Shown here piece by piece: positions 15,591 through 18,500 of a DNA stretch of 64,000 bases. Position 1 is the stretch's first letter. Each line of letters opens with the position of its first letter. Location: the NCBI RefSeq assembly GCF_032362555.1, contig NC_083509.1, forward strand, positions 5,293,001 through 5,357,000, written 5' to 3'. Under the pieces are notes generated by a model. It had not been told where the DNA came from. It saw nothing but the letters and a program-made list of their open reading frames with translations, and searched no databases. A program made the position numbers and the translations under genes. Source of the DNA: Amyelois transitella. Lineage: Eukaryota; Arthropoda; Insecta; Lepidoptera; Pyralidae.

Positions 15591-18500
15591 TCATTCCACG
15601 TCCATCTGCTCCTGCGGCTGGTCGCTGGCCGCGCCGTCACCTGCCGTCTGGTTGGTGGCCGGCGGCGGCGTCTTCTCTTTAGGTTTCGGCTTGTTCAGAA
15701 TTGGGTTAACTGATGTCTCAAAGTTCTGTAACAAATACATTTTTTATATGCATGAGTCTATATCTCTGTTGCTCCCCTTCTAGAGCGGTTATTCAGAGAA
15801 TATTAATAAGTACCTGTCTCTCGGTACGGATCTGGTGCGTGGTGGTGGGAGGCGGCTGGTGGCGCGGCGTGTGCGCGATGGTCTGGCGCGTCTTCTCCAG
15901 CCAGTTCAGCGCGTTCTGCGTTGCTTCGGATACTTTCTGGATGTCGGCTTCGGTTAAATGCGCGTATTTTGCATCGCCGGCCCTGGAAAATAGTTATCAG
16001 TATATGGTCTGAACAAAGCTGAAAATATTCGCCGTTTTATTCATATTTTCCATTATTTCTTCGCTCCTTATAGATGCAGCGTAATGTTATACAGCCTAAA
16101 GCCTTCCTCGATAAATGGTCTATTCAACACAAAAAGATTTTTTCAATTCGAACCAGTAGTTCTTGAGATTAGCGCGTTCATCGAGCGCGAGCGTTAATCT
16201 CAGGTTTTTGCGGTGAATAGACCATTTATCGAGGAAGGCTTTAGGCTATATAACATCACACTGCAACTATAAGGAGCTAAGAAATAATGGAAAATGTGAA
16301 AAACGGGGAAAATTATTCATCCTTAAAGGTTTCAATGATGCCCAAAATAACTATGCCACGCGGACAAAGACACGGGCACAGCCAGTTATAAATAAAAATT
16401 ATATTAATCGATCTGAACTTACTTGTACAGATCAATAGCTTTATTGGCCAACTGAATCGATAGTGCGAAATCGTCAAGTGCTCCAGGGCGAAGCTCGAAT
16501 TCTAATCTCCTTTGTTTGATGGGCTCGCCTTCGGTTCTCAACTCTGTTAACTTGTCACTGTACACCTGTAGAAACAAAAAAGTACTGGTGTTATAGGCGA
16601 AACGATTATCTGTTTTCAGTTTGCGAGCTTTAGATCAATTGATGGGCTGAAAAGAAAGATCATTCCTTAATCCTTTTTTCGTCACGGGTCGAGTCTCTAT
16701 GGTTTATTTAAATACACATATACATACACACAGGTAATATAGTATAGACTTAAGTAAATATACAGGCATTGCTTTGTGTACCCCGTCGTGCTGGTGTCTG
16801 GTTCCAGATTATTATTTTCCCCATGAAATATAGGATTATTCATCGTCAATCTTCTTCCTCCTGGCGTCAATACCGACTACATGCACTCCTTTGAGAAGAG
16901 CACGAAGAGAGTGCTGTGACTGTGACAACGCTCACAGCTGCCACCTCAACTCACCTGTCTGTTCTGATCCTCGCCCTCGTCGTAGAGCCACTGCTCGAGC
17001 GCGTCGAGCTGGTTGACGAGCCGGCCGCGCTGCTCGTACACGTACTGTAGTCACAGCTGCCACCTCAACTCACCTGTCTGTTCTGATCCTCGCCCTCGTC
17101 GTAGAGCCACTGCTCGAGCGCGTCGAGCTGGTTGACGAGCCGGCCGCGCTGCTCGTACACGTACTGTAGTCACAGCTGCCACCTCAACTCACCTGTCTGT
17201 TCTGATCCTCGCCCTCGTCGTAGAGCCACTGCTCGAGCGCGTCGAGCTGGTTGACGAGCCGGCCGCGCTGCTCGTACACGTACTGTAGTCACAGCTGCCA
17301 CCTCAACTCACCTGTCTGTTCTGATCCTCGCCCTCGTCGTAGAGCCACTGCTCGAGCGCGTCGAGCTGGTTGACGAGCCGGCCGCGCTGCTCGTACACGT
17401 ACTGTAGTCACAGCTGCCACCTCAACTCACCTGTCTGTTCTGATCCTCGCCCTCGTCGTAGAGCCACTGCTCGAGCGCGTCGAGCTGGTTGACGAGCCGG
17501 CCGCGCTGCTCGTACACGTACTGTAGTCACAGCTGCCACCTCAACTCACCTGTCTGTTCTGATCCTCGCCCTCGTCGTAGAGCCACTGCTCGAGCGCGTC
17601 GAGCTGGTTGACGAGCCGGCCGCGCTGCTCGTACACGTACTGTAGTCACAGCTGCCACCTCAACTCACCTGTCTGTTCTGATCCTCGCCCTCGTCGTAGA
17701 GCCACTGCTCGAGCGCGTCGAGCTGGTTGACGAGCCGGCCGCGCTGCTCGTCCGCCACGAACTCGTGCAGCGCGGAGCCCTCCGACAGCTTGCCTCGCAG
17801 CTCGTACACATACTCCTCTAGAGCATTGCGGGCGTCGGCGCGCTCTTTCTCTTGTCTGTCTTGGGCTTGCATTTTACCCTGGAATGGTAGCAAAAATGTT
17901 GTCAATATATTTCCAAAACAAAATCAGGAACTATTCGCATTTGACCTGTAAAATCATTTGAAAATTAATGACAGAAAATTATGAAAAGTACCTCTTGTTC
18001 CATGTAGGTATTGAGTTCCTGCTGAGTGTATCCATGAGTTCTAGCATCTATGGGCAATTCAACAGTTTTCACTAATACTTTCTTAGTTTTCTCTTTTGAT
18101 TTGTCCTTTTTGTCGTCAGCGTTTTCCTGTAAATTAAAGCAGACAATTCACAACTTATATACAATATGTTATCCCCACCACTACACCACTTGAAATGTTT
18201 TTGTCATGTAAAAAAACCTTTTTCAAGTAGTGTAGTGACCCATTTGCACCTCCTTCAACGTATCTGGAAGACATTACTTTAAGGTACTTTAACACCATAA
18301 AATCTTCCAAAATCGTTGAGTGAAGAAAAACAACAAACAAATCAATAAATTGAGAATAACAAAACATGCGTGGACACAGAGACAGAACTGTAAAATAAAT
18401 AATATTAAACACACCATCACTCACTGTGAGGCATCACACAAAAGCCTCGGCGCAATATTTGTGTGCAAATGGGACCTCTCAAGAGGAGAATGGGGAAGTC

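Follow-up and report, generated by a model that had tools for sequence, protein, structure and literature searches.

A tandem array of identical units repeats the end of a coding exon and its splice donor within the next intron of an HSPA4/Hsp110-type chaperone gene of Amyelois transitella

In the genome assembly of the lepidopteran Amyelois transitella, an HSPA4/Hsp110-type chaperone gene has the end of its exon 12 repeated in tandem together with the splice donor and the start of intron 12, giving seven predicted donors of equal score ahead of one acceptor. Our results suggest that this is probably a young minisatellite across the boundary of exon 12 and intron 12, where donor 1 does nearly all the work and the later donors give minor transcripts with a stop. 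Repeats of this kind are already known in human genes; what is unusual is the combination of a long unit that carries coding sequence, perfect identity between the copies and, in a conserved chaperone gene, six donors that lead to a stop. The features are given below in gene direction, with positions counted from the first base of the 64,000-nt stretch of contig NC_083509.1 that was analyzed (the window).

Exon 1 at about 24349 to at least 15814, minus strand: HSPA4/Hsp110-type chaperone gene
17669..17878, minus strand: exon 12 (numbered by the exons found), 210 nt, 70 codons, phase 0 at both ends, with its end covered by the array
17801..17814, minus strand: stretch of exon 12 resembling the junction (AGTATGTGTACGAG), 13/14 match
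16932..17751, minus strand: tandem array, end of exon 12 plus start of intron 12, 119-bp unit x 6.9
17667..17668, minus strand: donor 1 (GT of CAG/GTGAGT), score 10.9, frame kept open
17633..17645, minus strand: first of six 13-base junctions (CTACAGTACGTGT), each linking copied intron to copied exon
17548..17549, minus strand: donor 2, score 10.9, Val-Ser-stop
17429..17430, minus strand: donor 3, score 10.9, Val-Ser-stop
17310..17311, minus strand: donor 4, score 10.9, Val-Ser-stop
17191..17192, minus strand: donor 5, score 10.9, Val-Ser-stop
17072..17073, minus strand: donor 6, score 10.9, Val-Ser-stop
16953..16954, minus strand: donor 7, closest to the acceptor, score 10.9, Val-Ser-stop
16566..16567, minus strand: acceptor AG of intron 12, score 13.4 with the site itself in the training set
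16423..16565, minus strand: exon 13, 143 nt

An earlier sequence-only reading of the window had proposed about seven 119-bp units with identical copies, and both claims were confirmed in the assembly. Tandem Repeats Finder gave a period of 119 with 6.9 copies, 100% matches and 0 indels, and comparison of the array with itself at a lag of 119 showed 701/701 identical positions in an unbroken run, corresponding to an array of 820 bp. Intron 12 measures 389 nt when the array is left out and 1103 nt with it. A search of the 327-Mb genome (33 contigs; one candidate scored, counts being lower bounds) found the array at a single place. A dispersed repeat or transposon was therefore rejected as its identity, as further genomic copies were not seen beyond this one place, itself a lower bound. 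The finding of zero differences in 701 positions bounds the divergence between neighbouring copies at about 0.43% (95%). If a butterfly mutation rate of 2.9e-9 and the absence of homogenisation are assumed, the bound gives a weak indication that the array is younger than ~0.74 million generations. For background, 24 stretches of 10 kb (240 kb) were all scanned, and contained 1 array with a period of at least 40 (132 bp x 2.0); the stretches were chosen manually at round coordinates and form a non-random sample. No report of the array was met in the literature searched, where genes of the Hsp110 type are scarcely covered, and we do not claim its absence from print.

The HSPA4-like character of the gene, also suggested by the sequence-only reading, was borne out. 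Exons 12 and 13 together matched the Pfam HSP70 family (PF00012, E 6.3e-9), as did two other exons (3/3 tested). Among the four closest PDB matches to exons 12 and 13 the best three were SSE1 and the fourth was SSA1. Judged by its sequence, the gene is thus a member of the HSPA4/Hsp110 group of the Hsp70 superfamily; within Hsp110, HSPA4 is the name we assume for it. Joined at donor 1, exons 12 and 13 are colinear with yeast SSE1 (2qxl, chain positions 555-643, E 6.5e-13), including most of a 54-nt stretch of exon 12 that the unit lacks, and the product of donor 1 would thus be the conserved one.

In gene direction exon 12 contributes its final 83 bases to each unit, followed by 23 bases of intron starting with GTGAGT and by the 13-base junction. 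The unit joins YVYE to QRGRL and leaves out 54 nt of exon 12 (17800-17747), which are flanked by two similar stretches, ACGAGCTGCGAGGC and ACGAGCAGCGCGGC. At the six inner junctions the last nine bases of the 13-base junction and the following ACGAG form AGTACGTGTACGAG, which agrees with exon 12 at 17814 in 13 of 14 bases, the single difference being synonymous. Outside the array, and with up to 2 mismatches allowed, this was the only match to AGTACGTGTACGAG in the 64 kb when both strands were compared. The likeness of the junction to the same exon near 17800 had thus been correctly noticed, and the claimed origin at local similarity is supported by the junction match and by the skip of 54 nt between similar stretches, with the order of events a matter of interpretation. 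Most of the skipped residues have counterparts in SSE1, which suggests that the unit derives from the exon and not the reverse. Probably, the first extra unit arose when a local duplication jumped from one of the similar exon stretches to the other, 54 nt apart, and was then multiplied by unequal exchange or slippage. The 4-6 bases ahead of AGTACGTG (CTAC...) at the junction are unexplained. Slippage driven by hairpins was not supported by folding of the 119-nt unit as DNA (z 0.34; 128/200 shuffles fold at least as well), and the 820-nt RNA folds worse than its shuffles (z 3.05; 20/20). The claim of a 90-base in-frame segment holds for the frame, but not for the stated 26 residues, as the segment encodes 30, that is YVYE plus the 26 of the exon-end part (78 bases). 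Taken together, the 701/701 identity, the single genomic place and the 13/14 match of the junction to the same exon argue for a minisatellite of local origin.

Splice sites were scored with a matrix derived from sites within the gene itself (11 donors and 12 acceptors, with the array donors and one further donor left out), which with about a dozen sites is only a guide. On this scale the array donors all score above the 11 other scored donors of the gene (0.2 to 9.8, each left out in turn). Seven competing donors had been proposed at 17668, 17549, 17430, 17311, 17192, 17073 and 16954, with the acceptor at 16566; these positions were recovered, and all seven are predicted CAG/GTGAGT sites of equal score. 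As would be expected of a minisatellite spanning a donor, the array includes the donor of the real exon (17668), and its later units hold six donor-like sites. In translation only donor 1 leaves the frame intact, and donors 2-7 all end in ...NRQVS-stop (TGA, the third intron codon). Loss of exon 13 (143 nt) would also shift the frame.

Comparable systems have been described. The VNTR in intron 18 of human ABCA7 starts with the donor GT of exon 18, and retention of one unit is seen in 2 +/- 1% of transcripts, independent of VNTR size; products containing a stop increase when translation or decay is blocked, and longer VNTRs are associated with reduced expression and with more frequent loss of the following exon (PMC5954066). 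As in the chaperone gene, the first GT of the repeat is the canonical donor of the exon, and in ABCA7 a downstream unit can act as donor, which leads to a frameshift, a stop and decay. The ABCA7 repeat differs in its 25-bp unit, its slightly varying copies and its highly polymorphic number of about 12 to 427 copies. In addition, it begins at the GT, so that coding sequence is not copied, whereas the array reported here has identical units of 119 bp with 83 coding bases in each. In human IFI6 (6-16, G1P3) two downstream units of a minisatellite are reported to serve as donors, and three mRNA species result (PMC4526556). There too a minisatellite supplies several donors, but the alternative donors yield protein isoforms, while donors 2-7 of the chaperone gene are predicted to give a stop. 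The minisatellite of human IFI6 (6-16) was reportedly the subject of a study by Turri, Cuin and Porter in 1995 (Nucleic Acids Res 23:1854).

In human paralogues, minisatellites with units of 9-228 bp at exon-intron boundaries likewise alter exon-intron structure, and 27 intron modifications have been reported (PMC2812944). These internal tandem repeats sit in recently duplicated gene families, whereas our array is at one genomic place. In Drosophila introns have been gained via tandem duplication within exons, which is similar in that coding sequence with splice signals is duplicated locally; there a copied proto-splice site gave a new intron, whereas here an existing donor was copied and no usable new acceptor was seen (PMC2891723). 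Repeats near intron-exon junctions have been noted in algae as well (PMC8724738, PMC3887541).

Based on the human ABCA7 and IFI6 parallels, we favour minor use of the downstream donors. In most transcripts donor 1 would be joined to the acceptor at 16566. Occasionally a later donor may be chosen; the transcript would then gain a stretch of intron that is read as Val-Ser-stop, and would be degraded. The extra units would in that case be near-silent ballast, or would slightly lower the output of the gene. The longer ABCA7 VNTRs, with their lower expression and more frequent skipping of the next exon, show that such arrays need not be silent. As a further counterpoint, where two donors are comparable the one closer to the acceptor is reportedly preferred, for reasons given as unknown (PMC6002489). 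Under this preference donor 7 would prevail in the chaperone gene, with damage to the allele.

The opposite reading is that the donors closer to the acceptor take a large share of the splicing, or that the array causes exon 13 to be skipped; many transcripts would then carry a stop, and the chaperone would be dimmed according to the copy number. Such poison splicing is in line with the equal scores of the seven donors, which exceed those of the other 11 scored, and with the stop that follows from each of donors 2-7, as well as with the reported preference for an intron-proximal donor (PMC6002489) and the fall of ABCA7 expression with longer VNTRs (PMC5954066). Against it, the unit-retaining product of ABCA7 stays at only 2 +/- 1% whatever the VNTR size (PMC5954066), and selection would be expected to act against such an allele in a conserved chaperone gene. 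When paired with a short allele, it could be borne. We consider this reading unlikely. Somewhat more doubtful still is the extension that the array is a natural copy-number dimmer, in which the number of identical donors sets the share of HSPA4-type transcripts that end in a stop and a fast-mutating repeat tunes the chaperone level. The perfect identity of the copies could also be produced by an assembler that expanded one or few true units. Such an error would be unexpected, as 820 bp is short relative to long reads and the contigs are chromosome-sized, and the new junction, with its 13 extra bases, does not correspond to a plain misjoin of two flanks; we regard an assembly error as improbable.

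Splicing of the copies as mini-exons, which the sequence-only reading had considered possible, was not supported. Every inner unit does have an AG before and a GT after a stop-free segment of 90 nt in phase 0, and could in principle lengthen the helical domain by 30 residues. However, the acceptor-like site CTACAG scores -9.3 and the best AG in the unit -4.0, compared to -1.3 to 12.6 for the true acceptors (left out in turn), and only 29 nt lie from copy to copy, compared to 84-771 nt in the ten introns measured in the gene. The in-frame property is also common, since 11 of the 13 AGs in the unit with sequence after them leave a multiple of three, 9 of these 11 free of stops, and SSE1 lacks such an insertion. 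Duplication of tandem exons, either cassette or mutually exclusive, was rejected on the same grounds, as each copy lacks a usable acceptor (-9.3) and a workable intron (29 nt). Altogether, mini-exons appear very improbable, and the minisatellite with donor 1 in nearly sole use is the reading we retain.

Three further arrays with a period of at least 40 are found in the window, at 456-1274, 2010-2176 and 29445-29645. The first two lie in a transposon, which we take to be piggyBac-like, that occupies positions 1-4017 and runs off the left edge of the window; it has an unbroken transposase frame of 562 codons at 2329-4017 (Pfam DDE_Tnp_1_7, PF13843, E 1.4e-88). Its array at 456-1274 (120 bp x 6.7) is located upstream of the transposase start codon and occurs at ~30 genomic places (31 scored candidates with 37 match rows, of which 27, counting the one in the window, reached full length and the top score). 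Five of 8 fetched transposon loci were comparable; in 4 the identity reached the window edge on the left, and in 4 it covered all 1500 bases available on the right, which suggests that the element moved recently. Kinship of this array, also ~820 bp long and with a period of 120, with that of the chaperone gene was rejected, as it lies in the transposon. Neither array was found in the genome search with the other, and direct comparison gave only 8-base matches (E 7.9).

On the plus strand, a transaldolase exon (PF00923, E 1.4e-41) has its acceptor and first bases three times at 29445-29645, about 63-72 bp apart, with a mean column identity of 84%. The three acceptors all have high scores (12.5, 13.5 and 10.5); splicing to the second would insert 21 residues in frame and the first runs into stops. 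Upstream of this exon, at 29065-29118 on the plus strand, there is a short 24-bp repeat with the acceptor-like TTTTACAGTGGA. The transaldolase repeat is a mirror image of the chaperone case, and older; with a donor repeat in one and an acceptor repeat in the other, two host genes of the window have a repeat across a splice junction.

The human parallels point to donor 1 and the proximal preference to donor 7, and it is this conflict that gives the locus its interest. The seven donors are evenly spaced with identical flanks and a working protein follows from the first only, which leaves position as the sole variable and bears on the question of the proximal donor. If the array is indeed a dimmer, alleles of different length would amount to a dose series that bears on how identical donors are chosen. 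The locus would also show how a conserved chaperone gene bears a perfect repeat of coding sequence and donor.
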